From contig CALQYS010000008.1 of NCBI GenBank assembly GCA_943348755.1, positions 1-35,348 of the forward strand: DNA of 35,348 nt. The letters are read 5' to 3'. A model generated the notes under the pieces. That model did no database searches. It had not been told where the DNA came from and worked only from the letters and a program-made list of their open reading frames with translations. Both the position numbers and the translations under genes were made by a program. Shown piece by piece: positions 5,846 to 34,991 of this stretch. This DNA is from Candidatus Nomurabacteria bacterium. GTDB taxonomy: Bacteria; Patescibacteriota; Minisyncoccia; Phycocordibacterales; UBA9973. Numbering within the stretch: position 1 is the stretch's first letter; each line of letters begins with the position of its first letter.

Positions 5846-6371
5846 AACTTAGTTTCTCGAAAGCCATTTTGACGGCTTCTTTTTCATCGGGGAACATGGC
5901 TATGGTGCTGTCATCCGTTACGCCAGTGTTTCTATCTATATGTTTCAGGTCTACAATCTTTTTCACATCGTTCGGTCTGATTACTTTAAATCCTCCAAAT
6001 GAAGCCTTTTTCTCTCTATTTAGCATGCTTTTCCAAACATTTTCTTCCACGATTGCTCCATAGGTGATTACTTGTTTCTCTGGTTTTTCATAATTTATCA
6101 ATTCTTTTAAATTTCCTGTTTCAGAAATTTTTTTCACAATAGAGAGTATTTCAGATCCCAGTTCTTCTTTAATTTCTCGAAACAGCGCCTGCATGAAGTC
6201 TTCGCCTTCTTCAAGTCCTCCATGAGCCGTCACTTGGCACATACCAGGCCAAGATTCTGGAGCATTTTTCTCTGAGTCCCATTTTGCACGGACTTGGAGT
6301 ATTGCCACGAGTCCTCCGTCTTTATTTTTACCCAGCAATTGTATGCCGACAGATTTCTTCTTAGGGGTCAT
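5844..6371 (-). CDS. NUDIX hydrolase
   Basis: Nudix box GGLEEGEDFMQALFREIKEELG. Confidence 0.88.
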   Translation of the reverse strand: MTPKKKSVGIQLLGKNKDGGLVAILQVRAKWDSEKNAPESWPGMCQVTAHGGLEEGEDFMQALFREIKEELGSEILSIVKKISETGNLKELINYEKPEKQVITYGAIVEENVWKSMLNREKKASFGGFKVIRPNDVKKIVDLKHIDRNTGVTDDSTIAMFPDEKEAVKMAFEKLS

Positions 6372-6401
6372 GTATTACATATTATCATGTTTAATACTAT
6401 G

Positions 6402-6429
6402 TTGATATTTTTTATAAAAGTTGTATAAA
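6402..6429 (+). promoter_or_regulatory. Promoter TTGATA-16-TATAAA upstream of the 28-aa ORF
   Basis: Motif reading; precedes a compact unit ending in a strong terminator. Confidence 0.55.
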
Positions 6430-6506
6430 TATAGGTGATAAGTTCGCAATGTAAATTAACCTTAACCGCATGCTACAAGCGTGCAGGAAGCGAGGAGGTG
6501 AGTAAA

Positions 6507-6593
6507 ATGGCAAGACCCAGAAAAGGCGACAAGAAGAGAAGTCACCCCAGTTGGAACGCTGGCCTCAAGAAGGCAGCAAACCGGGGCAAGTAA
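6507..6593 (+). CDS. Small basic 28-aa protein MARPRKGDKKRSHPSWNAGLKKAANRGK (absent from the supplied ORF track)
   Basis: ATG preceded at 8 nt by AGGAGGTGAG; own promoter and terminator. Confidence 0.65.
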   Translation: MARPRKGDKKRSHPSWNAGLKKAANRGK

Positions 6594-6608
6594 TCCGAAG
6601 CAGGCATC

Positions 6609-6651
6609 ATGGGAGGGGTCAGCGAAAGCGTTGGCCTCTCCCATTCTATTT
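6609..6651 (+). terminator. 16-bp terminator hairpin (ATGGGAGGGGTCAGCG-AAAG-CGTTGGCCTCTCCCAT, 3 G-U pairs) followed by TCTATTT
   Basis: Manual pairing, uninterrupted stem. Confidence 0.85.
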
Positions 6652-6654
6652 AAT

Positions 6655-6682
6655 TTGACATTTTAGCCCTATTTGCTAATAT
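6655..6682 (+). promoter_or_regulatory. rpsS operon promoter TTGACA-16-TAATAT with extended TGC
   Basis: Same layout as the tuf promoter. Confidence 0.8.
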
Positions 6683-6688
6683 AAATCC

Positions 6689-6709
6689 AAGCTCGATTCG
6701 AGCTTTTTG
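6689..6709 (+). promoter_or_regulatory. 5'-terminal leader hairpin AAGCTCG-ATT-CGAGCTT then TTTG
   Basis: 7-bp stem starting at the predicted +1. Confidence 0.6.
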
Positions 6710-6732
6710 TTTGCTTTAAAAGATAAAACAGT

Positions 6733-7086
6733 ATGACAAGATCACTCAAAAAAGGCGTATATGCTGATGAAAGGCTCTTAAAGAAGATTGCCGGCAAAAA
6801 CCCGCTCAATACCCCTCCTGTAAAGACATGGAAAAGAGCTGTAGTTATCTCTCCGGAGATGCTTGGCTTCACTTTTGGCGTTTATAACGGCAAGGTGCAT
6901 GTGGAAGTGCTAGTCACCGAAGACATGGTGGGTCACAGATTCGGCGAGTTTTCTCCAACCAAGAAATTTACAAAACACGGAGGAAAGATGCAGAAAGAAT
7001 TGGAGATGAAGAAAAAGGAAGCAGAGATAGCGGCCGCCAAGGGCGCGACAGCAGCCGCAGCTGACGCTAAAGCACCTAAAAAATAA
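6733..7086 (+). CDS. rpsS: 30S ribosomal protein S19 with Ala/Lys-rich C-terminal tail
   Basis: TRSLKKGVYAD...VTEDMVGHRFGEFSPTKKFTKHGGK. Confidence 0.96.
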   Translation: MTRSLKKGVYADERLLKKIAGKNPLNTPPVKTWKRAVVISPEMLGFTFGVYNGKVHVEVLVTEDMVGHRFGEFSPTKKFTKHGGKMQKELEMKKKEAEIAAAKGATAAAADAKAPKK

Positions 7087-7088
7087 TC

Positions 7089-7490
7089 ATGAAAGCATTT
7101 TTTAAAAATTACAGACAAGCTCCCAGGAAAGTTCGCCTAGTGGCCTCTCTAGTGAAAGGTAAGAACGTTGGTCAAGCAATTGTTGAGTTAGACTTCTTAG
7201 CAAAGCGCGCAGGGCTTCCGATCAAGAAGCTTTTACTTTCGGCTGTTGCCAACGCAAAGAACATGGGGTTAGATACAGAAAATTTATTTATAAAAGAGTT
7301 AAGGGTGGATAAAGGGATAGTGATGAAAAGGATGATGCCAGCAGCCATGGGCACAGGGCACAGGATCAACAAGCGCACCAGCCACTTGAATCTTCTTTTG
7401 GCGGAGAGGGTGATGCCAGTTAAGAAGTCAGCGCCGAAGGCCGAAAAGAAAATAAAAATAGTTAAGGCAAAGGAAGTAGTAAAAAAATAA
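7089..7490 (+). CDS. rplV: 50S ribosomal protein L22
   Basis: NYRQAPRKVRLVASLVKGK; MPAAMGTGHRINKRTSHLNLLLAE. Confidence 0.96.
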   Translation: MKAFFKNYRQAPRKVRLVASLVKGKNVGQAIVELDFLAKRAGLPIKKLLLSAVANAKNMGLDTENLFIKELRVDKGIVMKRMMPAAMGTGHRINKRTSHLNLLLAERVMPVKKSAPKAEKKIKIVKAKEVVKK

Positions 7491-7496
7491 AATTAT

Positions 7497-8240
7497 ATGT
7501 CAAAAATAGTACATCCATACGCACATAGATTGATCATTCTCCGAGACTGGAAGTCTCGCTGGTTTGCTGATCCCAAGAAGTATGTCTCTTATCTAAAGGG
7601 AGATGTCCTAATTCGCCAATACTTGGAAAAGAAATTACGTGGGATGTATGTTTCTACGATTGAGATAGAGCGAAGCCGAAAAGCGACTCGTTTCATCATT
7701 AAAACTTCTCGTCCAGGTCTTATCATCGGCCGAAGTGGTGAGGGTGCAGCCAAGCTTAAAGAAGAGATTCTAAAAAAGATGGATAGAATAAAGATTCCAC
7801 GTCCAGAAGATTTTAAACTAGAAATAGTAGAAGTGGCAAACCCAGAAGCAGATGCGGCCATAGTTGCATACATGATCGCCGAAGGACTTGAAAAGAGGTT
7901 GCCATATCGCCGAGTCATCAAGACTATTATCGAAAAGGTGATGACAGCCCGTGGAGTGGAGGGTGCCCGCGTTGTTCTCTCAGGCAGACTCGGAGGAGCA
8001 GACATTGCTCGTACAGAAGAGCTCAAGCGTGGAAGTATTCCGCTTCAGACTTTCCGCGCGGACATAGACTTCAAGCGAGAGCGAGCGACCATGTCTTATG
8101 GGGTTGTAGGTGTGAAAGTTTGGATATACCGAGGAAAGATATTTGCAGACAAGAAAGCAAAAACTGTTTTTAGTACAGAGGCATCGGCTGGGACTGAAGC
8201 ACAGTCAGTAAACAACAATAAAGCTATTAAATTAGATTAA
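7497..8240 (+). CDS. rpsC: 30S ribosomal protein S3
   Basis: TSRPGLIIGRSGEGAAKLKEEI; GVEGARVVLSGRLGGADIARTE. Confidence 0.97.
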   Translation: MSKIVHPYAHRLIILRDWKSRWFADPKKYVSYLKGDVLIRQYLEKKLRGMYVSTIEIERSRKATRFIIKTSRPGLIIGRSGEGAAKLKEEILKKMDRIKIPRPEDFKLEIVEVANPEADAAIVAYMIAEGLEKRLPYRRVIKTIIEKVMTARGVEGARVVLSGRLGGADIARTEELKRGSIPLQTFRADIDFKRERATMSYGVVGVKVWIYRGKIFADKKAKTVFSTEASAGTEAQSVNNNKAIKLD

Positions 8241-8244
8241 ATAT

Positions 8245-8673
8245 ATGTTAGTACCAAAGAAAGTAAAATTTAGAAAATGGCAGACCAAGCGTACAAACCC
8301 AAAAGCAATTGGGCCAGACACTAGGGGTAATAAGTTGGCCTTCGGTTCTTACGGGCTTAAGGCTACCACTCCTGCTCGTGTGCGATCTGTACAGATCGAA
8401 GCGGCTCGAAAAGTTATCGCTCGAACGCTGACCAAAGCTGGTAAATACTGGATTCGTATTTTTCCAGACCGTCCTTATACGGCTAAGCCTGCAGAAGTGG
8501 GCATGGGTAAGGGTAAGGGAGACCCGCAGGGTTACTGCTTCGATGTTTTTCCTGGACGCATCATTTTTGAAGTAGACGGAGTAGAAGAAAAAATTGCTCG
8601 TGAAGCATTACGAAAAGCCGGCAGTAAGTTGCCGATATCGGTGCGAATAATGTCCCGAGCCCACAGACAATAA
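8245..8673 (+). CDS. rplP: 50S ribosomal protein L16
   Basis: RKWQTKRTNPKAIGPDTRGNKLAFGSYGLKA; MGKGKGDPQGYC. Confidence 0.97.
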   Translation: MLVPKKVKFRKWQTKRTNPKAIGPDTRGNKLAFGSYGLKATTPARVRSVQIEAARKVIARTLTKAGKYWIRIFPDRPYTAKPAEVGMGKGKGDPQGYCFDVFPGRIIFEVDGVEEKIAREALRKAGSKLPISVRIMSRAHRQ

Positions 8674-8676
8674 TTT

Positions 8677-8883
8677 ATGGCCAAAACAAAGAAAACTGAA
8701 AAGGAAAATCTGAAAGGTATGAAGCCAGCCGAGCTTAGTAAAAAACTTGCTATTTTACAAGAAAATGCAAGAGTTATAAGGTTCAAGGCGGAAGGTTCAA
8801 AATCAAAGAATGTAAAAGAGCTTCAGGCTTTAAGAAAAGACATAGCTCGAATTTTAACCGAAATTAACAGCAAGAAACAATAA
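8677..8883 (+). CDS. rpmC: 50S ribosomal protein L29
   Basis: L29-like helical hairpin ...[20 protein letters not shown]; operon position. Confidence 0.9.
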
Positions 8884-8887
8884 AAAT

Positions 8888-9151
8888 ATGCCAAAGAAAG
8901 TACAAGAACAGAATACAGAAAACAAAGGCAACATCTTAAAGGGTGTGGTTGTTTCAGATAAGATGCAAAAGACTGTCGTTGTTTCCGTTTCCAGATTTAT
9001 CAAGCATCCACTTTATGGTAAATATTATAAAGTCAGTAAAAAGTATAAGGCTCACGATGAAGATAATAAATACAAAATAGGGGATGAAGTAGAAATAGTA
9101 GAGACAAAACCGATTTCTAAAGATAAAAAATTTAAAGTAGTCGTTAAATAA
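8888..9151 (+). CDS. rpsQ: 30S ribosomal protein S17
   Basis: [42 protein letters not shown]. Confidence 0.95.
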
Positions 9152-9157
9152 ACATTT

Positions 9158-9529
9158 ATGATACAACCAAGAACATTAGTAAAGATAGCGGACAATGCCG
9201 GAGGAACACTCGGAGCGGTCTTTAAGGTTTTAGGTTCTTCTAAGAAAAGATACGCGACTCTCGGTGAAGAAGTGGTTATTTCTGTCAAAATAGCGACCCC
9301 TCGAAAGGGCGTGAAGAAGAAGGATGTACATCAGGCAGTCGTTGTGCGTACTCGCGCTGCTTATAGGAGAAAAGATGGTTCTTATATACGTTTTGATGAC
9401 AACGCAGTAGTGCTTTTAGAAAAGGGCAAGAAAGATCCTAAAGCAGGACGTGTTTTCGGTCCAATGCCAAGAGAGCTTGCCGAGAAAGGATATCAAAAGA
9501 TAATTTCCTTAGCGCAGGAAGTAATTTAA
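9158..9529 (+). CDS. rplN: 50S ribosomal protein L14
   Basis: MIQPRTLVKIADNAGGTLG; VVRTRAAYRRKDGSYIRFDDNAVVLL. Confidence 0.97.
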   Translation: MIQPRTLVKIADNAGGTLGAVFKVLGSSKKRYATLGEEVVISVKIATPRKGVKKKDVHQAVVVRTRAAYRRKDGSYIRFDDNAVVLLEKGKKDPKAGRVFGPMPRELAEKGYQKIISLAQEVI

Positions 9530-9534
9530 ATAAA

Positions 9535-9753
9535 ATGAAAATAAAAAAAGGAGACAATGTAACAGTCATAACCGGCAAAGATAAAGGTAAAAAAGGGAAA
9601 GTTGCCCGTGTTTTAGTGAGTGAGAATAAAGTTATTGTCGAAGGAATCAACATGATGAAAAAGCACCAGCGTCCAAGGAAGTCTGGTGAAAAGGGCAGTA
9701 TGAAAGATATCGAAATGCCAATAGACGCTTCGAATGTTAAAAAATCAGCATAA
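9535..9753 (+). CDS. rplX: 50S ribosomal protein L24
   Basis: KIKKGDNVTVITGKDKGKKGKVARVL. Confidence 0.95.
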   Translation: MKIKKGDNVTVITGKDKGKKGKVARVLVSENKVIVEGINMMKKHQRPRKSGEKGSMKDIEMPIDASNVKKSA

Positions 9754-9757
9754 ATAT

Positions 9758-10321
9758 ATGAAACACTTAACTGTAAAAGAAAAAGAAGCAGTAGTTTTCG
9801 AGAAGATGAAAAATACTTTTCATTACAAAAACGTCATGGCTGCTCCAAAGATGGAAAAGGTGGTGGTAAATGTCGGTACAGGAACAGCTATTAAAAAAGA
9901 TAAAAATAAAAATGACGCCATCTCTCTGCGTCTAGCAAAAATAACTGGTCAAAAAGCTTCGACACGAGGTGCTAAGCAGTCAGTCGCATCTTTTAAAACT
10001 CGAAAAGGCGACCCGATAGGTATCGTTGCTACTCTTCGTGGTAAGAGAATGTATGCTTTTCTAGAAAAGTTGATCAACGTAGCGCTCCCTCGTACTAAGG
10101 ACTTCCGTGGAATTAGTCCAAAATCAGTGGACAATATCGGCAACCTCTCTATTGGTATTAAAGAACACACGATTTTCCCTGAAACAGCTGATGAAGACAT
10201 TCGTGATGTGTTTGGTCTCTCTATTACCCTTGTTTCTAAAGCAAAAAATAAAAAAGAAGGCGCTGCCTTTTTTGAGCTACTCGGTATTCCTTTCAAAAAG
10301 GAGGAAACAACCAAGAAATAA
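9758..10321 (+). CDS. rplE: 50S ribosomal protein L5 (start revised to the internal ATG)
   Basis: MEKVVVNVGTG; KPRTKDFRG-like ALPRTKDFRGISPKSVDNIGNLSIGIKEHTIFPE. Confidence 0.95.
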   Translation: MKHLTVKEKEAVVFEKMKNTFHYKNVMAAPKMEKVVVNVGTGTAIKKDKNKNDAISLRLAKITGQKASTRGAKQSVASFKTRKGDPIGIVATLRGKRMYAFLEKLINVALPRTKDFRGISPKSVDNIGNLSIGIKEHTIFPETADEDIRDVFGLSITLVSKAKNKKEGAAFFELLGIPFKKEETTKK

Positions 10322-10383
10322 AGTTATTTTCGGAGGATCTTGTTGAATGTTGCCTTACAGCTAGGATGTAATATAATACATCC

Positions 10384-10788
10384 ATGCCTCCGGACATGAA
10401 AACACCCAATAATTCTGAGATTGATCAAGCCCTGAAGGAGTTTGAGGCTCAGTCTGGGGCGGGAGCAGTCCCAAAATCCCCCGAAGCTTTAAAGACTTCA
10501 GATGTTCCAAGGACAGCACCTTCTGGAATAAGTTTTGAAACTGACACTTATAGATCAGAAAATATAGACGACCAAGTCCCGGTCTCTAAGATGGTTAAGC
10601 TTGTGATAAAATGGTCTGGAGGTGCCATCAAGGAACAAAGGCAGGCCGAATATGTGCTTCTGGCTTTCTCAGTAGTGGTGTTTCTTTTCTCTTTGTATCT
10701 ATTTTTTGGTCAGAGTTCAAGTAAACCCAAAAATCCGGAATCATCCTTTGAACAAATATTGCGTTCACGTTCAGGCTTAGCTAAGTAG
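10384..10788 (+). CDS. Hypothetical protein with one C-terminal transmembrane segment
   Basis: ORF with AEYVLLAFSVVVFLFSLYLFFG; TATAAT 6 nt upstream of ATG. Confidence 0.7.
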   Translation: MPPDMKTPNNSEIDQALKEFEAQSGAGAVPKSPEALKTSDVPRTAPSGISFETDTYRSENIDDQVPVSKMVKLVIKWSGGAIKEQRQAEYVLLAFSVVVFLFSLYLFFGQSSSKPKNPESSFEQILRSRSGLAK

Positions 10789-10796
10789 CAACTTTA

Positions 10797-11246
10797 ATGA
10801 TTTTTCAAAAATACAAATCAAAAGGATTCACGTTAGTAGAACTTATGGTTGTGGTTAGTATCATTAGTTTATTAGCAAGTATCATACTTACTAGTTTGAG
10901 TGATGCCCGTGCCAAATCTCGAGATAGTAAAAGGGTGCAGACGATGGTGTCTATAAGAACTGCGGTAGAACTGTACAGGACGGCGGCAAGTACAAATGAT
11001 AGTTATCCTGATTCAATTGCAGTTTTGAAAAGCACTGTTATGCCAAATTTAGTAGAAGATGGAACAATATTTTATTTTAGTCCTAGTCAAATAGCGTCTT
11101 TTAGAGGCACCATTATTGGTTGTGGAAATCCAACACAAGTTTCATATTTAATATATACTGGTACAGTTGAAAGAACAATTAAATTGCCTTTAATTTATAT
11201 GGGTACATCGCCAGTTCAAGGTTGGTATTGTCTTGGTACAAATTAA
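10797..11246 (+). CDS. Type IV pilin/pseudopilin-like protein
   Basis: Class III prepilin signal KGFTLVELMVVVSIISLLASIIL. Confidence 0.88.
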   Translation: MIFQKYKSKGFTLVELMVVVSIISLLASIILTSLSDARAKSRDSKRVQTMVSIRTAVELYRTAASTNDSYPDSIAVLKSTVMPNLVEDGTIFYFSPSQIASFRGTIIGCGNPTQVSYLIYTGTVERTIKLPLIYMGTSPVQGWYCLGTN

Positions 11247-11247
11247 T

Positions 11248-11276
11248 TTGACTAAAAGGCTTTAATTTGCTAGTAT
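11248..11276 (+). promoter_or_regulatory. rpsN operon promoter TTGACT-17-TAGTAT with extended TGC
   Basis: Same signature as the tuf and rpsS promoters. Confidence 0.75.
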
Positions 11277-11390
11277 TGAGAGCAAGGTGAATAAACCTCA
11301 GTTAATCCATTTTTCTCCTTTGATTCTTCATTTTTGAAGGGTTAAAGAAAAAAAGTGAGATATTACAGGGTTTACCCGGAATTATTTTTT

Positions 11391-11576
11391 ATGGCCAAAA
11401 CATCAGTTATCGCAAGATCACTCAAGAAGCCCAAGTTTAGCACTCGAAAGAAAAATCGATGTTTTCGCTGTGGGCGAGGTAATGCTTTCATGCGAGATTT
11501 CGGAGTTTGTCGTATATGTTTTAGAGAATTAGCAAATGAGGGAATGCTGCCAGGCGTCCGCAAATCAAGCTGGTAA
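11391..11576 (+). CDS. rpsZ: 30S ribosomal protein S14, zinc-binding type Z (start revised)
   Basis: [38 protein letters not shown]. Confidence 0.95.
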
Positions 11577-11581
11577 AATTT

Positions 11582-11968
11582 ATGGATCCAATTTCAAACA
11601 TGTTGATAGTGATGAAGAATGGCAGCCTTGCGGGCAAGGAGTCTGTACTGCTTCCGTATTCAAAAATAAGGAATGCTATCTTGGAATGCTTAAAGCAAGA
11701 AGGCTACGTGGCCTCTGTTGCCAAGAAGGTTAGAAAAGACCAACCAGTACTTGAAGTTGGGTTAGTTTACAATGAAGCTAAACCAAAAATCACTGAAGTG
11801 GAAAGAATTTCTAAACAATCCAAGCGTGTGTATTTTGGTATGAAAGACATTCATTCAGTCAGAAGTGGGTCCGGTTTACTCGTACTTTCTACACCGAAGG
11901 GGATTTTATCAGGCAAAGCTGCCCGAGTAGAGCATGTAGGCGGTGAAGCGTTGTTTAGGATTTGGTAG
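11582..11968 (+). CDS. rpsH: 30S ribosomal protein S8
   Basis: MDPISNMLIVMKNG...VRSGSGLLVLSTPKGILSGKAAR...GGEALFRIW. Confidence 0.96.
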   Translation: MDPISNMLIVMKNGSLAGKESVLLPYSKIRNAILECLKQEGYVASVAKKVRKDQPVLEVGLVYNEAKPKITEVERISKQSKRVYFGMKDIHSVRSGSGLLVLSTPKGILSGKAARVEHVGGEALFRIW

Positions 11969-11992
11969 TTTTTTTGGTAATAAAATAAATTT

Positions 11993-12526
11993 ATGAGCAG
12001 AATAGGTAAACAAGAAATATTAATACCAGATGGAATCAAAGTCACACAAAATGGGGGTGTTTTGACCGTAGTGGGCCCAAAAGGAACGATCAAGAAAACT
12101 TTCAGAGATGATATCACTATCACTATAAATGATAAATCTATTTCTCTAAATGTAAAAAGAAATGATAAATTTTCCAAATCACTTTGGGGCACTTATGCTG
12201 CGCATATCAAAAACATGATCGCTGGTGTAGTTACTCCTTATCAGAAAAAACTAATATTGGAAGGTGTGGGGTACAAGTCTGAGGTCAAAGGCAAAGAGTT
12301 CAACTTTGCCCTAGGTTTTTCTCATCCAGTTATTGTCAAAATACCAGAAGGTATCACTGCCACGGCTGATAAAAACAACATTACAATTATCGGAATCGAC
12401 AAAGAGTTAGTCGGAAGTTTTACCGCAGCCATTCGGGCTTTGAAAAAGGGTGAGCCTTATAAAGGTAAGGGTATGCGTTACGAAGATGAAGTCATCAGAC
12501 GCAAGCAAGGCAAGAAAACAGTCTAA
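11993..12526 (+). CDS. rplF: 50S ribosomal protein L6
   Basis: MSRIGKQEILIPDG; EPYKGKGMRYEDEVIRRKQGKK. Confidence 0.97.
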   Translation: MSRIGKQEILIPDGIKVTQNGGVLTVVGPKGTIKKTFRDDITITINDKSISLNVKRNDKFSKSLWGTYAAHIKNMIAGVVTPYQKKLILEGVGYKSEVKGKEFNFALGFSHPVIVKIPEGITATADKNNITIIGIDKELVGSFTAAIRALKKGEPYKGKGMRYEDEVIRRKQGKKTV

Positions 12527-12541
12527 GGATATTAAAATACC

Positions 12542-12895
12542 ATGCAAAACAAAAATAAAAACAAAGATACAAAAAGACTAAGATTAAAAAAGAGAATTCG
12601 GGTCAAAATCCGAGGTACAGAAGAGCGTCCAAGACTTACTATATTTCGTTCAAATAAATTTATATATGCACAAGTTGTAAATGATATGACTGGTAAAACT
12701 CTTGCACAAGCAAGCGATATTAAGGTAAAGAAGGGGACAAAGACTGAACGAGCCAAGGAGGTGGGTAAGATGATCGGGGAAGTTTGCAAGGGGGCTAAGA
12801 TTTCTAAAGTTGTTTTTGATCGAAATGGATTTAAGTACACTGGAAGAATAAAGTTAGTAGCGGACGCGGCTCGAGCTGCCGGTCTACAATTTTAG
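12542..12895 (+). CDS. rplR: 50S ribosomal protein L18
   Basis: RVKIRGTEERPRLTIFRSNKFIYAQVV; VVFDRNGFKYTGRIKLVADAARAAGL. Confidence 0.96.
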   Translation: MQNKNKNKDTKRLRLKKRIRVKIRGTEERPRLTIFRSNKFIYAQVVNDMTGKTLAQASDIKVKKGTKTERAKEVGKMIGEVCKGAKISKVVFDRNGFKYTGRIKLVADAARAAGLQF

Positions 12896-12918
12896 TCAAT
12901 TTTATTTGATAAATTATT

Positions 12919-13512
12919 ATGGAAAAAGCAAAAGACAACATAAGAGAAAAGAAGGGTAATAATCGTAAGGGTTCGTCTTTTGGGCGACCAAAACCTGAAT
13001 TTGATCAAAAGATCGTAAACATTCGTCGTGTTACTCGCGTGGTGGCTGGTGGACGCCGATTTTCTTTTTCTGTGGCACTTGTGGCAGGAGATAAAAAGGG
13101 TTCTGTGGGCTTGGGCCTAGGAAAGGCTGGAGATACGGCTCTCGCAATAAATAAGGCAGTTAGGAATGCAAAGAAGAATATGATTAGACTCAATTTAACT
13201 AAAACCATGTCAATTCCGCATGAAGTTTATGCTAAATTCTCAAGTTCGAAGGTGTTAATCATGCCCAACAAGGGTCGTGGGCTTGTCGCGGGTTCCGTCA
13301 TTCGAGATATAGTCAAACTCTCTGGTATGAAAGACGTTACAGGGAAAATTATATCTAACAGCAAGAACAAATTAAACAACGCCAAAGCTGTAATGGAAGC
13401 ACTAAAAATCATTTCCTCGAAATACGCAAAACCAATTCCTGAGAATGTTGTTATTGCCAACAAAGAAGTTCCGCTAGAAGCAGCTGTGTCGGAAATTCCC
13501 AAAGAAGAATAA
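12919..13512 (+). CDS. rpsE: 30S ribosomal protein S5
   Basis: VTRVVAGGRRFSFSVALVAGDKKGSVGLGLGKA. Confidence 0.97.
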   Translation: MEKAKDNIREKKGNNRKGSSFGRPKPEFDQKIVNIRRVTRVVAGGRRFSFSVALVAGDKKGSVGLGLGKAGDTALAINKAVRNAKKNMIRLNLTKTMSIPHEVYAKFSSSKVLIMPNKGRGLVAGSVIRDIVKLSGMKDVTGKIISNSKNKLNNAKAVMEALKIISSKYAKPIPENVVIANKEVPLEAAVSEIPKEE

Positions 13513-13517
13513 ATTTT

Positions 13518-13829: not shown

Positions 13830-13854
13830 GCGTTCTGCCTATTAAAAAATAAAT

Positions 13855-15141: not shown

Positions 15142-15179
15142 TCCTTGATTTTCAAGCATAATTTGTGTATTCTTTTGAT

Positions 15180-17227: not shown

Positions 17228-17259
17228 TATTTTACTTGTTTTGTTATACAATTAGAGTT

Positions 17260-20605: not shown

Positions 20606-20644
20606 GATTTTGCAAAAATATTTTTATCTGCTAAGATACTTGTT

Positions 20645-22404: not shown

Positions 22405-22559
22405 TAGGGTTATTTCCGGTTATTACCTAGACACTAATTTATGGGAGAGTCGATCGTGTTAGACCTTGGTCTAATACGTCTCTCACCCACCTAGCTATAA
22501 GCTATGGTAATACATCTGAAATAGTCCTAAGAAGTACCCCCGTTAACACGGGGTTTTTT
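22405..22559 (+). ncRNA. Structured non-coding RNA, 6S RNA-like candidate
   Basis: Closing stem 22405-22416/22518-22529, second stem 22421-22427/22506-22512, central bubble with a small 3'-side hairpin 22492-22504, long apical hairpin 22443-22488, then terminator. The RNA call is strong; the 6S identity is inferred. Confidence 0.68.
22538..22559 (+). terminator. Terminator CCCCGT-TAAC-ACGGGG-TTTTTT
   Basis: 6-bp GC-rich stem plus U6. Confidence 0.9.
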
Positions 22560-22584
22560 CTTTTCAGTATGATAAAATACTTAG

Positions 22585-22980
22585 ATGGACAGAAAAAAGC
22601 TTATAAAACACCTGATATACCTCCTTCTTTTCATTTTTATAGCAAATTTCCTAGCGAATAAGTTCTATTGGTATTACACTATCTGGTATTTTGATATGGT
22701 AATGCATTTTCTGGGTGGGTTTTGGATTGGTTTATTGTATTTTTATCTTTTTTCAATCAAAGAAAAGTCTCTTGGTTCATTTATTAAGGCATTATTCTTT
22801 GTTTTATTTGTTGGCATTGGATGGGAGGTATATGAGATATTAGTTAATAGCGTTATAGCCCAGAATCCTTTCGATTATTTAGATACATCTTCTGATGTAT
22901 TTTTCGATTTATTGGGTGGAGCAGCATCTACTTTTTATGTTTTTAGAAAAATTATGATTGCTAATATAAATAAAGTATAA
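22585..22980 (+). CDS. Small polytopic membrane protein (DUF2238/VanZ-like)
   Basis: YYTIWYFDMVMHFLGGFWIGLLYF...GIGWEVYEILVN...DVFFDLLGGAAS. Confidence 0.7.
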   Translation: MDRKKLIKHLIYLLLFIFIANFLANKFYWYYTIWYFDMVMHFLGGFWIGLLYFYLFSIKEKSLGSFIKALFFVLFVGIGWEVYEILVNSVIAQNPFDYLDTSSDVFFDLLGGAASTFYVFRKIMIANINKV

Positions 22981-22988
22981 TTGAGCCT

Positions 22989-24353: not shown

Positions 24354-24382
24354 TTTTTCATTAAAAATGTTAATATGAAAAT

Positions 24383-25000: not shown

Positions 25001-25038
25001 AGGCTTTCTAGCTTCCTTTTTGTGTTAAAATAAAACTT

Positions 25039-26891: not shown

Positions 26892-27398
26892 TTATCGTGC
26901 TTTCTCGATTGTTGTTGTTAAACCTTTTGGACCTTTTTTATAGCTATCAGATACTTTATACTCTTCGGTGATTAAATGCAAAACTCTGTCTAGGCGTTCC
27001 CGTAAGAACTTTTCATCCATATACTTTGCGCGACCGGCGAGGAAGAGTTCGACTTTCACTCTGTGTCCTTCTTTGATCCACTTTGAAGCAGTTTTTGCTT
27101 TTAATTCTAGATCATGATCACCCGTACCTATCTTTACTTGGATGCCTTTTGTCTCTGTTTTATTTGCACCAGCCTTAGCTTTTTTTAATTTTTTGTTCGC
27201 TTCGTACTGATACTTACCGAAATCCATCACTTTCGCGAGTGGGGGATTTGCATTTGGGCCTATCTCTATCAGGTCCAAGCCCTTACTTTGCGCTAATTCC
27301 AATGCAGCTTTTATGCTTAAAACACCGAGATTTTTATTTTCACTGTCTAAAACCCGAAGTTCCGTCGCCCGTATTTGGTTGTTTATTCTTTCACGCAA
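26892..27398 (-). CDS. infC: Translation initiation factor IF-3 (TTG start)
   Basis: NNQIRATELRVLDSENKNLGVLS; LIEIGPNANPPLAKVMDFGKYQYE; VKVELFLAGRAKYM. Confidence 0.96.
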   Translation of the reverse strand: MRERINNQIRATELRVLDSENKNLGVLSIKAALELAQSKGLDLIEIGPNANPPLAKVMDFGKYQYEANKKLKKAKAGANKTETKGIQVKIGTGDHDLELKAKTASKWIKEGHRVKVELFLAGRAKYMDEKFLRERLDRVLHLITEEYKVSDSYKKGPKGLTTTIEKAR

Positions 27399-27432
27399 TG
27401 TATAAATATACCAAGAAGACTTTGGCCCTTAG

Positions 27433-27461
27433 AATATAGCTTATTCGGGCCTTAAAGTCAA
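27433..27461 (-). promoter_or_regulatory. infC operon promoter TTGACT-17-TATATT
   Basis: Reverse-strand hexamers with ideal spacing, between tmRNA and infC. Confidence 0.82.
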
Positions 27462-27472
27462 TGTTTACCCTG

Positions 27473-27872
27473 TGGTGGAACTGACGAGAATTGAACTCGT
27501 GTGCAGAAAGCTTTTGTATTGAAATCTACATATATAGCACGCTTTTTTGTTTAGATTAAAAAATTCTTAAACGTGCCAAATATTTTTTAATCGAGTTCTA
27601 TGTTTTCGTGAAATATTCGAACGGATATTTCCTTATCCCGATAATATTGTGCCTCTACTCATATATCGGAAGTCTATAAGAGAGACATCAGTTACGCCGA
27701 AGCGGCAACTGAAGCAAAAGCGAAGTCATTCATACCGAAGTATGGAGAGACAGCCGCTTTTACTTTGGAAGCTAATTTTGCAATTAAGCTATTGAACGAA
27801 TTTTTACGAGATTACGTCCATTCTCGATATGCATCAAATACATACGGCCTACTGTCTATGCCTGGCAGTCCC
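27473..27872 (-). ncRNA. ssrA: Transfer-messenger RNA (tmRNA), encoded CCA
   Basis: Acceptor GGGACTG/CAGTTCC, T-arm ACGAG-TTCAATT-CTCGT, ACCA end, PK1 (CGAGA/TCTCG with TGGACG/CGTTCA), resume context TAATT-GCA, tag ORF to TAA inside a hairpin; adjacent to smpB. Confidence 0.92.
27692..27781 (-). other. tmRNA tag reading frame: AKLASKVKAAVSPYFGMNDFAFASVAASA*
   Basis: GCA resume codon 11 nt after PK1; TAA stop within a hairpin. Confidence 0.7.
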
Positions 27873-27887
27873 ATGTTTTCAAGCTCC

Positions 27888-27966
27888 GCATCCTGAAAAT
27901 TTTTTGTCCTGCGCCCTTCCCTGAGTACAGGGTGGGACCCTCGGACAGAAAAAATTTTTAGGATGC
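27888..27966. repeat. 79-bp imperfect inverted repeat with AT-rich arms and GC-rich core
   Basis: GCATCCTGAAAATTTTTTGTCC ... GGACAGAAAAAATTTTTAGGATGC; inner CCCTG-AGTA-CAGGG. Confidence 0.85.
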
Positions 27967-27986
27967 TTCGCTTATTGTCAAAGTTC

Positions 27987-28436
27987 TTATTCTTTACCTC
28001 GTATGTCTCGACGAATCTCGCGATCCGTCTCACGCTTCTTTATAGTCTCACGTTTATCAAATTTTTTCTTGCCTTTTACTAGAGCAATTTCTACTTTGAT
28101 TTTTCTGCCTTTATTATACACTGAAATTGGTACGATTGTCAAACTTTTATTCTTTTCATTTCCGGCTAATTCATTGATTTCCTTTTTAGTGAGCAAAAGC
28201 CTGCGATTGCGCAGTGGATCATAGTCTTTTGGTGCATTTTTGGCTTGGTATGCGGGAACATTGGCATTGATTAAAAAAACTTCTCCTCCTCGAACTATCA
28301 CAAAGGCACCTTCGAGAGACATTTGTCCACCTCGTACAGACTTTACTTCCGAGCCCAAAAGTTCAATACCAGTTTCGTATTTTTCTAGGATTTCATAGTC
28401 GAAACGTGCTTTTCGGTTTTCCGCGTAGTTGCTCAC
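27987..28436 (-). CDS. smpB: SsrA-binding protein SmpB (GTG start)
   Basis: NRKARFDYEILEKYETGIELLGSEVKSVRGGQMSLEGAFVIV...KKEINELAG...KGKKKFDKRETIKKRETDREI. Confidence 0.97.
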   Translation of the reverse strand: MSNYAENRKARFDYEILEKYETGIELLGSEVKSVRGGQMSLEGAFVIVRGGEVFLINANVPAYQAKNAPKDYDPLRNRRLLLTKKEINELAGNEKNKSLTIVPISVYNKGRKIKVEIALVKGKKKFDKRETIKKRETDREIRRDIRGKE

Positions 28437-28486
28437 GAATTTATCTTACCATAGATTTTATTAATTTTTTATGCTAATATTTTTAT

Positions 28487-29308
28487 ATGGAATCAGGAGT
28501 ACCGACAATTGAGAAGCCAGGGTTAACTCCAGAAGAGTTGGAACAGCTTAGGGTGCTTTGTGATAAACAACCAGCATTAGTTAGGCGTTTTTTGCAAGTG
28601 AATTCTAAAAAAGAGACAGCTCAACCTAATTTGGCTGAACCGAATCATAATTCTGAAAATCCGCTTGATCAAATAAAGACTCTTACTCAAGCTCTTGTTG
28701 CGTTGGAGACTGAGAGCGGTGTTGATTTTTCAAAAAGTAAAATAGGGGAATTGTTTCGCCAAGTCGAAGAACTTGGTGCAAAGCCGGTTCGTCCTATGGA
28801 TGATTATTATAAGGGTGAATTTGATGTGCAAACCGCAGCAGCAGAATTTAGTACGGAGTTTCCAGAAATAATTAAACGTTGGTTGGCTTATAAGGAATCT
28901 GAACCAGAAAAAAGAGGGGAGATATTAACTGCTTTTATCCAAGATGTTAAAAAATTCAGTAAGAAACTTTGTCGGGTCATTAATGAAAATGAACCTAGGA
29001 CTTCAGCTGACACCTGGATGGCCTTGGATGATTTAAAACAAGCTCTTAACATCATCTTGTCTAAAAGAAAATTACCATTAAGTGTTTTCGTTCCTGTTCC
29101 AAATACCCCCTTTAGATTGGAGTCCATGACTTCTTATTTTCCTGATACTTCGGGCTTGTCCTCTTTTGAAATTAATCGTTTAAGACAAGAATACGATGGG
29201 CGTGCCAAATTTAGAATTGTCGCTGTTACTCAATTTGGCATGATAATTAATGGTGCTGCAGGAGTTCAATCAAGGGTGGTAGAACATGCCGAGGTTAAAA
29301 CTGAATAG
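28487..29308 (+). CDS. Hypothetical protein
   Basis: 273-aa ORF with its own putative promoter; no family recognised. Confidence 0.7.
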   Translation: MESGVPTIEKPGLTPEELEQLRVLCDKQPALVRRFLQVNSKKETAQPNLAEPNHNSENPLDQIKTLTQALVALETESGVDFSKSKIGELFRQVEELGAKPVRPMDDYYKGEFDVQTAAAEFSTEFPEIIKRWLAYKESEPEKRGEILTAFIQDVKKFSKKLCRVINENEPRTSADTWMALDDLKQALNIILSKRKLPLSVFVPVPNTPFRLESMTSYFPDTSGLSSFEINRLRQEYDGRAKFRIVAVTQFGMIINGAAGVQSRVVEHAEVKTE

Positions 29309-29384
29309 TTTTTTCTGTAATTAATCTTTATATATTTAGAGATTCTTATTTCACTTTATCTACTTTTTATGCTACCATTTGCAA

Positions 29385-31310
29385 ATGGATTTTAATTTTC
29401 TGAATAAAAAAGGTCTACAAAACAAAGGGAAAAAAGGATCAAAACCCACAAAGTTTGGAAGTAGTGTCGCTGGAACAGTACTCATCTTCATGCTTATCAC
29501 AGCAGTGTACTTAGTAGTGTCAGATAACGACAAAGTTATTCCAGAAATCCCAATTTCAGATTTGGCTAAGAGTGTCTCAGCCGGAGAAGTAAAAAATATT
29601 GTAGTCGAAGGTGATCAGCTGACCATCACCTATCAGAATGATGAAGTGAAAAAGGCTAAGAAAGAAGTCGGCTCGGCTCTTTCGCAGACACTCTTTAATT
29701 ATGGAGTCACTCCGACTGCGCTTGCCAAGACTGGCATTGAAATAAAAAATGAAAGCGGGTTTATGTTTTTTTTGTTAAATATTTTACCCTTCTTGCTTCC
29801 CATAGTTTTTATTTTACTTTTCTTCTGGTATTTATCACGACAGGTAAAAGGTGCCGGTATACAGGCTTTGACCTTTGGTCAGTCCAAGGCGCGCATCACT
29901 GATCCGAATGACAAGAACAACAGGGTGACTTTCAAGGATGTGGCCGGGTGCAAGGAAGCAAAAGAAGAATTAAAAGAAATCGTAGATTTTTTGAAAAGTC
30001 CAAAGAAATTCCTAGATATTGGGGCGAGGATTCCAAAGGGTGTCATCTTGACCGGAGCTCCGGGTACCGGCAAGACCTTGCTCGCGCGAGCGGTGGCGGG
30101 GGAGGCCGGCGTGCCATTCTTTCATTTGTCCGGTAGCGAATTCGTGGAGATGTTCGTCGGCGTCGGTGCTTCCCGGGTGCGAGATCTTTTTAAAATGGCC
30201 AAGAAAGCGGCCCCAGCGATAATTTTCGTAGATGAGATAGATGCGATAGGACGAACACGTGGAGGCGGGTTTGGCGGGGGAAATGATGAAAGAGAGCAAA
30301 CTCTTAATCAGATTTTGGTGGAAATGGATGGTTTCGAACCGAATGACAAGGTGATAGTCATGGCTGCGACCAACCGGCCAGATGTGCTCGACCCTGCGCT
30401 TATTCGTCCAGGGCGTTTTGACAGAAAAGTCTTGCTTGATTTGCCTGACCGTGCCGACCGCGAAGAAATATTGAAAATTCACGCAATGAAAAAGCCACTC
30501 GCGGAAGACATCAATCTAAAATTAATTGCCGAACGCACTCCTGGGTTCTCTGGCGCTGATTTATATTCTCTGATGAATGAAGGCGCGATATTAGCTGCGC
30601 GGGAGAATCGCAAAAAAGTTTTCCAGTTTGACCTGATTCGAGCGATTGAGAAAGTCATGCTTGGGCCAGAGAGGAAGAGTCATCTGCTTTCTAAAAAAGA
30701 AAAAGAAATTACCGCTTATCACGAGGCTGGACATGCACTTGTGGCTTCCGTGCTTCCGCATGCTGACCCAGTGCACAAGGTTTCTATCATCGCTCGTGGC
30801 AATGCTGGTGGCTATACTTTAAAACTTCCTCTCGAAGAGAGACGTTTGCAGTCTAAAAAAGAATTTATTGATGACATTGCCATGTCTCTTGGTGGTTATG
30901 TGGCCGAACAGATGATATTTGGAGATATAACGACTGGTCCATCGAGCGATTTACAAGTGGCCACGAACTTAGCTCGTGCTATGGTGACTCGCTGGGGCAT
31001 GTCTGACTTGATTGGGCCGATCGCTCTCGCCGGTCTTGGTGGACGGCCACAATATGGGGAGATGCCAGAACAAGAATACTCTGAGGCGGTTTCGACAAAA
31101 GTTGACGCCGAAGTATCGAGAATCATTTCTGACGGGATAAAGTCCGCAGAAAAAGTATTGACTGGACACCGCAAGGCCTTTGAGGCGATTGCGCAGAAGC
31201 TCATCGAAGTGGAGACCTTGGAACAAGAAGAGTATGAGAAACTTCTTACGGCACACGGGATAATCTTGAAGAAAAAAGATTTACCTGTGAAACTCGAGGT
31301 GGTAAGCTAG
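29385..31310 (+). CDS. ftsH: ATP-dependent zinc metalloprotease FtsH (start revised from TTG 29379)
   Basis: [52 protein letters not shown]. Confidence 0.98.
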
Positions 31311-31355
31311 TACCAGCCTAAAGCTAGTTTACCCTTTTTATAAAAATTTAAAACA

Positions 31356-31835
31356 ATGCCAAACAAATTTTGGAAGTGGTATGAGAAGGAATACAGAATC
31401 ATCGCGCCACTCACCGCCCTACTCTTTTTGTTGCAACTTGTCCACTTATATTGGATGACGACAAACATAGTCTTTGTAAAATTATTCGGACATGCCTTTT
31501 GGGATCCAAACGCTTTCTGGAACACCATTATTGCACTAGTTGACTACACAGAGATACCAGCGATTATTTCCAGTACTGTTTTTTATATCCATCAATATCA
31601 AACATATACAGGAATGAGATGGAAAAGTATTCTATTCCTTTTTCTTATTAACTCTCAATGGATTCACCTGTTTTGGATTACAGATGAGGTCATATATACA
31701 CAAATAGCTGGCACGGCTGCTTTTGTGATACCTGCATGGCTCGCTTGGCCTGCAATTCTGATTGATTATCTTGAGCTTCCAGTCATGTATGACACTGTCA
31801 AAAAGGCGATTATATCTTTGCGAAAAACCGCTTAA
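31356..31835 (+). CDS. Hypothetical polytopic membrane protein
   Basis: Several hydrophobic segments (IIAPLTALLFLLQLVHLYW, AAFVIPAWLAWPAILIDYL). Confidence 0.65.
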   Translation: MPNKFWKWYEKEYRIIAPLTALLFLLQLVHLYWMTTNIVFVKLFGHAFWDPNAFWNTIIALVDYTEIPAIISSTVFYIHQYQTYTGMRWKSILFLFLINSQWIHLFWITDEVIYTQIAGTAAFVIPAWLAWPAILIDYLELPVMYDTVKKAIISLRKTA

Positions 31836-31871
31836 TTTTGTAGTATTAAAAAGTTAGTTTATAACCACCTT

Positions 31872-31945
31872 CCGTCCTTAGCTCAGTTGGTTAGAGCACA
31901 GAGCTTATACCTCTGGGGTCCTTGGTTCGAATCCAAGAGGACGGA
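31872..31945 (+). tRNA. tRNA-Ile, anticodon UAU (CCA not encoded)
   Basis: Cloverleaf: CCGTCCT/AGGACGG, D-arm GCTC..GAGC, anticodon arm CAGAG-CTTATAC-CTCTG, T-arm CTTGG-TTCGAAT-CCAAG, A73. Confidence 0.9.
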
Positions 31946-31955
31946 CAATTAGCAA

Positions 31956-32207
31956 TTACTTCTTCTTATATTTAATGACCAAAAAGGTGTTGGTCCCAGT
32001 TATTGCTAGACTGGCAAGGTTTGAGACCATAATGCTTGTATTGCGGTTTAAATAAGCGTCTATAACTACGATAAGTATTGCCACACAAGTGATGGCATAC
32101 ATCAAGACACTGATATCTTCTGAACTTTTGGTTTTCAGAAGTTTGATCATTTGCGGGAATCCAGAGACCAAAAACAATATAGCCGGCAAGTAAAAAAATA
32201 TTTCCAT
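31956..32207 (-). CDS. PQ-loop / SemiSWEET-like small membrane protein
   Basis: SGFPQMIKLLKTKSSEDISVLMY PQ-loop motif, three hydrophobic segments in 83 aa. Confidence 0.78.
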   Translation of the reverse strand: MEIFFYLPAILFLVSGFPQMIKLLKTKSSEDISVLMYAITCVAILIVVIDAYLNRNTSIMVSNLASLAITGTNTFLVIKYKKK

Positions 32208-32253
32208 AGGTTAAGTATACTATTTATATTTTATTATCTCTAGACCTAATTTT

Positions 32254-34461
32254 TTACTCAAAATGGAACTCTTCCACCTTTGATTTAACTTTTTGTTTCA
32301 AGAGGGGATAGTTTGAGAGTTCGGGATCTTGTTCTATCAGGCGGACTGCTTCTGCGCGGGCGGCTTCGACCATTTTTAAGTTTTTTATAGCTTCCATGCC
32401 GAGGTCAGTGATACCCCATTGCTTGGTGCCACCGAGTTCGCCTGCGCCGCGGAGAGTGAGGTCGAGCTCGGCTAGCTCGAACCCGTTCTTTGCGGTCTTG
32501 AGGGCTTTCAGACGAGATATGGTTTTTTCGCTTTTGGCGTCTGCAAATACATAGCAATATGCTTGATGAGTGCTTCTTATCACGCGTCCGCGGAGCTGGT
32601 GCAGTTGTGCCAAGCCGAAGCGCTCCGCGCCTTCGATGACGATGACGGTGGCGTTTGGGACATTCACGCCCACTTCCACCACGGAAGTCGCGCAAAGGAT
32701 GTGTATTTTGCCTTCAGTAAAATCTTGCATCACTTCTTCTTTTTTTTCTTTGCTCATCTTGCTGTGCAAGACTCCTATCTCATACTCTCTAAAAACTTCT
32801 TTTTTAAGCCTCTTTGCCTCTTCCACCGCTGACTTTACGTTTAAAGCCATTTCTTTTTCTAGGTCGGCTTCAAATATTCTAGGACAAATAATGTAGAGCT
32901 GTCTGCCATTTTTTAATTCCTCTCTTATCTTTTCATACGTCTCCACGCGTTTGTTGGGCGTGATAATTTCGGTGACTATTTGCTTCCTGCCAGCTGGCAT
33001 CTCATCGAGGAGGGAAAGGTCGAGGTCGCCATAGATGGTCAGCGCTAGGGTGCGAGGGATGGGGGTGGCGGTCATGGAAAGCAAGTGTGGCGCGACGCCG
33101 TCTTTGCGGACCAATTTTCGTCTCTGAGCTGTGCCGAAGCGGTGCTGTTCATCGATGACCACCAGCGCCAAATTTTTAAATTTAACGGTTTTTTGTATAA
33201 GGGCGTGGGTGCCTATCAATATCGGTATCTCTCCATTTGCCACCCATTTCAAAAGTTGTGCACGAGAAATATCAGTCCATTTTACCCCGCTACCGGCGGG
33301 GCCTATTGTTTTCGCGGGAAACTTTCTGCACCCCGAGCCAGTAATGAGCCCGATGTTTATGGGCAAGTGTCTAAAATATTGGATGAAGGATTCGAAATGC
33401 TGAGCCGCCAAGATTTCCGTCGGTGCCATATATGCCACCTGCAAGTTTCCAAAACTTTGACCATTAGGTCTTTGTTTGACGGTCACATAGCTTGCAGTAG
33501 CCGCCACGGCTGTTTTCCCGCTTCCGACGTCGCCTTCGAGCAGGCGAGACATTGGAAAGTTTTTCCCCATATCACTCAATATCGTGTCGATGGATTTGGT
33601 TTGTGAATTGGTCGCAGTGAAGGGGAACCTTTGCAAGAATTCTGCCACACTTTTCTCATCTATATTTATTTTGAAAGATTTATTTTTCCTGTATTCAAAT
33701 TTATCATGCTGACGTTCGAGCTGAATGCAAAAGACTTCTTCAAAGGCGAACCTCTTGCGCGCTGACTCTGCGTCATCCGCATTTTTAGGCTTGTGAATCC
33801 AGACCAGAGCAGTCTTAAGTGTCGGCAGGCTATATTTTTTCAAAATGTCTGCCGGAATATAGTCCGCAATATTATCTAAAGTCTTTTCTCTTAATATTTT
33901 TTCAATTGCGTGATAAAACCATTTGGAAGTGATGCCACGAGTTTCAGCATAGACAGGATACCCGCCTGCAGAAGCTATGTTATCAGCATTGCGGGCAGGT
34001 GATAATCCTTCTGTTGATTTTTGAAACAATGAATTATGTGCATCTATCGGCATATTAGGCATCTTTTCAAATTCCGGATTAGCCAGATATGTGCCACTCT
34101 TGCTCCCTGTCACTTTACCCGTTAACTTCACTGTGTCGCCTTCGTGAATCATTTTAGCCAGGTAGGCTTGGTTGAACCAGATTATCTTCATTTTACCCGA
34201 AAGATCTTCGATGGTGCCTTCTGCCATCGGAATTTTAGAGCGGAAGCCTTTTTTTGTTCTAAGATTTGAAATCTTGCCATATACTGTCGCCATATCTCCG
34301 GCAGTTAACTCGGCAATTCTTTTGACTTCACTGATATCGCTATAACGGACAGGGAAGTGGAAGAGAAGGTCAGAGACAGAAAAAAGTTTGAGCTTGTGCA
34401 GTGCTCTTTTTTGATTAATGTCTAATCTGAATTTTGTTTCAATTCTATCACTGAGTTCCAT
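32254..34461 (-). CDS. recG: ATP-dependent DNA helicase RecG (start revised)
   Basis: LLEGDVGSGKTAVAATA; VIDEQHRFGTAQR; LLSMTATPIPRTLALTIYGDLDLSLLDEMPAGRK; LRGRVIRS. Confidence 0.97.
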   Translation of the reverse strand: MELSDRIETKFRLDINQKRALHKLKLFSVSDLLFHFPVRYSDISEVKRIAELTAGDMATVYGKISNLRTKKGFRSKIPMAEGTIEDLSGKMKIIWFNQAYLAKMIHEGDTVKLTGKVTGSKSGTYLANPEFEKMPNMPIDAHNSLFQKSTEGLSPARNADNIASAGGYPVYAETRGITSKWFYHAIEKILREKTLDNIADYIPADILKKYSLPTLKTALVWIHKPKNADDAESARKRFAFEEVFCIQLERQHDKFEYRKNKSFKINIDEKSVAEFLQRFPFTATNSQTKSIDTILSDMGKNFPMSRLLEGDVGSGKTAVAATASYVTVKQRPNGQSFGNLQVAYMAPTEILAAQHFESFIQYFRHLPINIGLITGSGCRKFPAKTIGPAGSGVKWTDISRAQLLKWVANGEIPILIGTHALIQKTVKFKNLALVVIDEQHRFGTAQRRKLVRKDGVAPHLLSMTATPIPRTLALTIYGDLDLSLLDEMPAGRKQIVTEIITPNKRVETYEKIREELKNGRQLYIICPRIFEADLEKEMALNVKSAVEEAKRLKKEVFREYEIGVLHSKMSKEKKEEVMQDFTEGKIHILCATSVVEVGVNVPNATVIVIEGAERFGLAQLHQLRGRVIRSTHQAYCYVFADAKSEKTISRLKALKTAKNGFELAELDLTLRGAGELGGTKQWGITDLGMEAIKNLKMVEAARAEAVRLIEQDPELSNYPLLKQKVKSKVEEFHFE

Positions 34462-34484
34462 ATTCAAATTTTAAGGAGAAAATA

Positions 34485-34904
34485 TTAAACAAGGGTGTTG
34501 TCTCTTCTTTTTCTAAAATATTCATCGAGGGACCACTCACTTGATCCGTATAGAAAGGTGGAGATGAGTGCCATACTGAGGCCAAAGTCACGTACGCCTA
34601 TCTCGTTGTATCCGACGGTAAGTGTAATGCTAAGCAAGTGCAGGGAAAGCAAACCCGCTACTATCCTTGTGTAAAATCCTTTTATGAGCAGTATACCCAA
34701 TATCACCTCAAACCATCCGTTCATATATACAAAACTTGTCGGACTTATCGGCAATTTATCTATCCATTCTGGTAAATATCCAACCCAAGAGGCTGGATTA
34801 ATAATTTGTTGTGAACCAAACCAAAGCATTACCAAACCCAGACCGATTCTCAAAACTATCGGAGAGAATTTTTCCATGTTTGTTTTTATATTTTGTCTAT
34901 TCAT
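34485..34904 (-). CDS. DoxX-family membrane protein (start tentative)
   Basis: LRIGLGLVMLWFGSQQI...GWFEVILGILLIKGFYTRIVAGLLSLHLL. Confidence 0.75.
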   Translation of the reverse strand: MNRQNIKTNMEKFSPIVLRIGLGLVMLWFGSQQIINPASWVGYLPEWIDKLPISPTSFVYMNGWFEVILGILLIKGFYTRIVAGLLSLHLLSITLTVGYNEIGVRDFGLSMALISTFLYGSSEWSLDEYFRKRRDNTLV

Positions 34905-34991
34905 ATACTTGAATATTATCACAAAACTTGGCGGTGTCTATTGTACAAAATTCGAACTTATTTTGAAAGCAATCCTGACGAAAGCTAATCG

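Follow-up and report, generated by a model that had tools for sequence, protein, structure and literature searches.

The window analysed here is a stretch of DNA of 35,348 nucleotides, contig 8 of a genome of 13 contigs (693,908 bp, 39% GC). The organism is a Candidatus Nomurabacteria-like member of the candidate phyla radiation (CPR; Patescibacteria, Paceibacteria side), and the SecY proteins nearest to its own share 80-91% identity with it and come mostly from genomes named Candidatus Nomurabacteria. A preliminary description listed 15 genes of the window in which a -10 promoter hexamer ends 6-8 nt before the start codon, a spacing that would put the transcription start (+1) on or near that codon and make the mRNA leaderless. 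Are these hexamers promoters, and do they belong to a general architecture? On re-reading of the sequence the hexamer, the gap (nt between hexamer end and start codon) and the start codon were exact in 15 of 15 cases; a site for IF3 is additional to that list. The sites are the following, where TGn is the mark of an extended -10 element.

6379..6384, minus strand: -10 TAATAT with TGn, NUDIX protein; gap 7 to ATG 6371
10372..10377, plus strand: -10 TATAAT; gap 6 to ATG 10384; gap 6-7 in 92% of 12 orthologues
15168..15173, plus strand: -10 TATTCT, adk; gap 6 to ATG 15180; -35-like TTGATT 17 nt upstream; 64% of 74 orthologues
17247..17252, plus strand: -10 TACAAT, TraG/TrwB-like ATPase; gap 7 to ATG 17260; 78% of 37 orthologues
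20632..20637, plus strand: extended -10 TGCTAAGAT, ndk; gap 7 to ATG 20645; 37% of 46 orthologues
22573..22578, plus strand: extended -10 TGATAAAAT; gap 6 to ATG 22585; 76% of 38 orthologues
22976..22981, plus strand: -10 TATAAT, beta-CASP metallo-beta-lactamase; gap 7 to ATG 22989; 53% of 47 orthologues
24371..24376, plus strand: extended -10 TGTTAATAT, SLOG cluster4 family; gap 6 to ATG 24383; 73% of 15 orthologues
25026..25031, plus strand: extended -10 TGTTAAAAT, histidine kinase; gap 7 to ATG 25039
27405..27410, minus strand: extended -10 TGGTATATT, IF3; gap 6 to TTG 27398
28443..28448, minus strand: extended -10 TGGTAAGAT, smpB; gap 6 to GTG 28436; kept in 2 of 2 orthologues found
28475..28480, plus strand: extended -10 TGCTAATAT, gene divergent from smpB; gap 6 to ATG 28487
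29373..29378, plus strand: extended -10 TGCTACCAT, ftsH; gap 6 to ATG 29385; TTCACT 17 nt upstream
32214..32219, minus strand: -10 TATACT, PQ-loop protein; gap 6 to ATG 32207; no TGn; TAGAGA 17 nt upstream
34468..34473, minus strand: -10 TAAAAT, recG; gap 6 to ATG 34461; no TGn and no -35, the weakest case
34913..34918, minus strand: extended -10 TGATAATAT, DoxX; gap 8 to ATG 34904; TAGACA 16 nt upstream

TGn is present in nine of the 15 listed sites, and orthologues support four of the six that lack it; the recG and PQ-loop sites, with neither TGn nor orthologue evidence, have no individual support. As had been described, some starts in the open reading frame (ORF) track lie upstream of the proposed ones (GTG 15165, TTG 17236, TTG 29379, TTG 34467, GTG 34922). 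A terminator-like hairpin (22538-22553) is found just upstream of the -10 at 22573..22578. The 50 bp shared by smpB and the divergent gene at 28487 (28436-28487) must house two back-to-back leaderless promoters.

How common is this arrangement in the genome, and how much of it would chance produce? Genes were called on the whole genome with a phased Markov model (617 genes), and the first ATG of each ORF was taken as the start codon for the statistics, which makes it independent of the upstream sequence. A 25-nt rule separates 348 operon-leading genes from the operon-internal ones (about 43% of genes; 263 used for motif counts). Before the operon-leading genes, -10-like hexamers stand at gap 6 in 21.8% and at gap 7 in 14.9%, against about 4-6% at most gaps above 20. 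Under this loose definition 127 of the 348 genes (36.5%) have a hexamer at gap 6 or 7, compared with 10.3% for other gap pairs before the same genes and with 6.8%, 5.9% and 8.4% before control ATGs that are in-frame internal, out-of-frame and non-start intergenic, respectively. Dinucleotide shuffles predict 38-46 matches (z = 13-15). The test set beforehand, that -10 motifs should be sharply enriched 6-8 nt before start codons when compared with composition-matched controls, thus came out positive, as a spike at gap 6-7. TAnnnT occurs there in 120 of the 348 genes (26.5 expected), and the strict motif TGnTAnnnT in 67 (43 at gap 6 and 24 at gap 7), with about two expected and about one per position elsewhere; gap 8 holds six more sites. 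The same strict motif precedes only 9 of the 263 operon-internal genes at gap 6-7. The preliminary description had warned that -10-like hexamers are frequent in AT-rich DNA, and about 28% of the loose matches (36/127) would indeed be chance; its extrapolation from 15 genes to widespread use stands, with a genome-wide estimate of about 35% of operon-leading genes. In an annotation-free test on the 1,753 genomic TGnTAnnnT sites, an ATG follows at gap 6 in 78 cases and at gap 7 in 62, where the mean is 26, and neither three scrambled motifs nor codons other than ATG gave a gap 6-7 peak in this genome test. E. coli, used as the negative control in the same pipeline, yielded 0 of 112 leaderless genes.

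Several features give the element the character of a promoter. TGn accompanies 53% of the hexamers at gap 6-7 and 7% of other upstream hexamers, and TTGACA-like -35 sequences are enriched at spacings of 16-18 nt (11.8, 15.0 and 8.7%, versus 5-7%) and at no others. Base composition relative to the ATG has TTTG at -36..-33, TG at -15/-14 and TA..AT at -12..-7. An expectation-maximisation motif model, with placement free from -60 to -1 and the position not given, recovered TGnTATAAT (T.77 G.72 n T.95 A.95 T.44 A.70 A.80 T.98) and placed it at gap 5-8 in 121 of the 348 operon-leading genes (34.7%), with 69.5 at gap 6 and 38.1 at gap 7. In an alignment of RpoD the region 2.4/3.0 stretch TIRIPVHM(I/V)ETI(N/S)K is retained; it holds the residues that read the TG of the extended -10 in E. 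coli. The base at -1 of TGnTAnnnT-ATG sites is mostly a pyrimidine (77% at gap 6, 71% at gap 7). As a separate observation, the base before the start ATG is T in 50-60% of genes genome-wide, leaderless or not; a contact between U(-1) and the initiator tRNA that extends their pairing may be the cause.

The spacing is also kept in other genomes. Orthologues were drawn from 80 related loci, and for seven of the claimed genes 41% of the 243 non-redundant upstream regions have a -10 at gap 6 and 19% have one at gap 7, compared with about 4% at gaps 21-44; near-identical regions were removed, and close relatives are still partly non-independent. Among 821 orthologue upstream regions of other, mostly operon-internal genes, the shares are 11% at gap 6 and 5% at gap 7. 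In the alignments TATAAT-6-ATG is fixed amid diverged flanks.

What happens inside operons? No leaderless signal is seen in operon-internal genes, among them most of the ribosomal operon; their sequence from -11 to -2 is rich in A. Leaderless promoters inside operons had been considered, given a loose -10 peak of 25.9% at intergenic gaps of 0-11 nt, and were rejected, as the peak is mostly explained by upstream stop codons: all loose matches at intergenic gaps of 6-11 nt, and most at 0-5 nt, overlap the previous gene's stop codon. Genes located 12-24 nt after the previous one are the only operon-internal class that retains a -10 signal (34%).

Shine-Dalgarno (SD) sequences, which the preliminary description had not seen in the genes of the ribosomal operon, are at control level before operon-leading genes: SD-like tetramers occur in 3.4%, versus 2.6% in the reverse-complement control, while E. 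coli in the same pipeline gives 43% versus 6%. Before operon-internal genes the figures are 9.8% versus 0.8%, without a positional peak, and the motif is therefore read as purine-rich coding sequence. SD sequences are missing because the 16S rRNA gene has no anti-SD. The single 16S gene of the genome (contig C3:19546-21094, minus strand) has the tail GGAATAATTCAATTTG, without CCUCC, and reads ...AAGCTGCTCGTGGAATAATTCAATTTGAAAAC where other bacteria have GGATCACCTCC. CCTCC is absent from all 46 16S tails tabulated for this order. Elsewhere in the class, 23 of the 63 genomes with a readable tail retain CCTCC, and in a phylum-wide sample the canonical tail was matched in 148 of 287 genomes, the non-matching ones including those whose 16S was not found or has a variant tail such as TACCTCC. 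Two genomes carry double tails: one order member (G129) has a 16S without anti-SD and a second 16S with a normal tail, and another genome (G477) has two different tails, both with anti-SD; this is either contamination or a second rRNA type. The genome encodes the translation factors S1 (four S1 domains, 395 aa), IF1, IF2 and IF3. Era was looked for in the genome and not found, consistent with its reported loss in most CPR (PMC10582724).

The anti-SD position in the 16S tails of the order often holds short inverted repeats (TTCAAATTGAA, TTCCAACGGAA, ATCGAAAGAT). These could be what is left of a stem used in precursor processing, for which covariation is only suggestive. A covarying mini-hairpin replacing the anti-SD was also considered and rejected: the best stems exceed shuffles by a modest margin only (8.9 against 7.7, sd 0.29), with two competing alternative pairings.

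Is the arrangement restricted to this genome? The same pipeline was run on 20 other CPR genomes, all partial, with about 55-100 kb each. The TAnnnT spike at gap 6-7 is significant (p < 0.05) in 17 of them and not in the remaining three (G189, G325 and G274). Pooling the TGnTAnnnT sites at gap 6 and gap 7 gives 18 and 7 for other genomes of the order, 10 and 3 for those class members that lack an anti-SD, and 26 and 11 for phylum members that have one; a single position between gaps 15 and 50 holds on average about 0.7, 0.9 and 2.3 sites, respectively. Phylum genomes with anti-SD carry SD motifs as well (20% versus 3% in the control). The idea that leaderless promoters arise only upon anti-SD loss is ruled out by three genomes with an intact anti-SD and the signature (G159, G291 and G343). 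Since the signature occurs in 17 of 20 CPR genomes, with or without anti-SD, the predicted leaderless promoters are, in this sample, widespread among CPR; on top of them comes the loss of the SD system, as a second layer specific to certain lineages. One further genome, G059 (L126-L130), includes a stretch of 21% GC of which only half is covered by called genes; this genome may be hard to annotate or have unusual genes.

Taken together, a promoter motif with fixed spacing to the start codon is conserved in a genome without SD enrichment before its operon-leading genes and with a 16S gene that lacks CCUCC. The leaderless architecture proposed in the preliminary description is supported by the enrichment, the promoter features and the spacing in orthologues, with +1 at the AUG as its predicted step. 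We consider it highly likely that operon-leading genes commonly use sigma-70 extended -10 promoters that place +1 at the AUG, giving leaderless mRNAs for a ribosome free of anti-SD. How would this work? Since the -10 ends 6-7 nt before the start codon, RNA polymerase would start on the A of the AUG or one base before it, and the mRNA would be leaderless. Initiation, including the position of +1 and translation from it, would then most likely proceed from a 5'-terminal AUG with initiator tRNA and IF2, on a ribosome unable to use SD sequences. Operon-internal cistrons, which have neither promoter nor SD, are probably translated by coupling or re-initiation, aided by the A-rich sequence before their starts. 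Five points weigh against this picture. Gene starts derive from a simple home-made gene finder; transcription start positions are taken from the sequence only; gap 7 accounts for about one third of the cases, so that a one-base leader is possibly common; the 3' end of the 16S is that of the gene DNA and not of the mature rRNA; and about 65% of operon-leading genes have no leaderless signal, therefore other initiation routes are needed. On the wider scale we lean, with some reserve, towards leaderless initiation being a major mode of expression across most CPR, to which the Nomurabacteria order would have added a permanent loss of SD and anti-SD, its ribosome reading leaderless mRNAs by default.

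Could the promoters be real and the mRNAs still carry a very short leader of 1-6 nt, near-leaderless and not strictly with a 5'-terminal AUG? Slippage of the start site by 1-2 nt is usual in bacteria, and the 24 sites at gap 7 and six at gap 8 fit such leaders; the modal gap of 6, however, puts +1 on the A, and the pyrimidine at -1 fits a pyrimidine/purine start there. The preference for T at -1 is weak evidence against short leaders because it is also seen in non-leaderless genes. We regard this alternative as rather unlikely. Is the hexamer instead an AT-rich, non-SD translation signal on leadered mRNAs, as proposed for Bacteroidetes? A ribosome without anti-SD needs an alternative recognition signal, and the A-rich stretch before operon-internal genes could be one, but an RNA-level signal would make both TGn and a -35 at 16-18 nt spacing superfluous, and the strict motif is nearly absent before operon-internal genes, where the loose peak mostly belongs to preceding stop codons; this explanation is very improbable. 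Chance hexamers picked by eye, which a genome of 61% AT supplies (about 10% of arbitrary gap pairs before operon-leading genes fit the loose definition), are refuted for the whole set by the excess of strict motifs, the shuffle scores, the conservation across species and the missing spike in the still more AT-rich G189, which argues that AT content alone is insufficient, and have next to no chance of being the answer, except possibly for single cases such as recG.

Further observations concern the region around smpB and IF3. Besides its leaderless-type -10, the IF3 region (27398-27461, minus strand) has a candidate for a leadered promoter further upstream, TTGACT-17-TATATT, and IF3 possibly has two alternative transcripts. 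Between smpB and IF3 lies a transfer-messenger RNA (tmRNA) gene (27473-27872, minus strand; Rfam E = 8e-47), missed by ARAGORN. A perfect TTGACA-18-TATAAT promoter is located within smpB (28113-28142, minus strand), about 240 nt upstream of the tmRNA, and may drive it.

The CPR is a large and mostly uncultured share of bacterial diversity. Gene finders that rely on SD sequences may misplace its start codons, for which a leaderless model is a direct correction, and promoters become readable by eye in organisms without genetics. The phylum is also a natural experiment, with related genomes whose anti-SD is intact, decayed or missing and in which SD and leaderless signals are measurable; what replaces a lost SD becomes testable by sequence and 5'-end RNA sequencing.

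How does this compare with known systems? Leaderless genes and anti-SD loss are each already known elsewhere, the latter also in a few CPR genomes. For leaderless promoters in CPR, their breadth and their combination with anti-SD loss, full-text searches, which covered neither subscription papers nor preprints, found no description, and the available part of the 2011 leaderless survey does not have CPR among its groups (PMC3160421). Leaderless 'TA-led' genes are described in Actinobacteria and Deinococcus-Thermus (Zheng 2011, PMC3160421; Shell 2015, PMC4633059), at more than 20% of genes in these groups and about one quarter of mycobacterial transcripts, a share similar to that found here. TA-led genes and the present ones have in common a sigma-70 -10 TANNNT that begins about 12 bp ahead of the start codon, an operon-leading position and the lack of an SD. 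SD-led genes coexist in the TA-led lineages, whereas here operon-leading genes show no SD enrichment and the 16S lacks CCUCC; a further difference is that the present element is strongly of the extended -10 type. A different comparison is offered by E. coli ribosomes trimmed by MazF, which lack the anti-SD and are reported to be selective for leaderless mRNAs (Vesper 2011, cited in PMC5397173); rRNA trimming by MazF/RelE is also described in M. tuberculosis (PMC12274833, PMC12620021). There the anti-SD is lost when a toxin cuts the rRNA, whereas here it is absent from the gene, permanently and order-wide, and the likeness is one of mechanism only. Flavobacterium johnsoniae (Bacteroidetes) reportedly retains the anti-SD and uses Kozak-like positions (PMC6847099). 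SD-scarce organisms lacking CCUCC include Flavobacteriia, Mycoplasma, Carsonella and insect symbionts, and Nanoarchaeia, and CCUCC loss is noted in single CPR genomes, namely Campbellbacteria, Wolfebacteria, SR1 and Peribacter (Amin 2018, PMC6107228; PLoS One 2024, PMC10783764). These organisms share with the present genome a 16S tail without CCUCC and the lack of SD sequences before genes. Campbellbacteria and Wolfebacteria are Parcubacteria-type CPR, like the present organism. In the available portions on those earlier CPR cases the alternative start signal is not identified, whereas here a putative leaderless promoter precedes about one third of the operon-leading genes.

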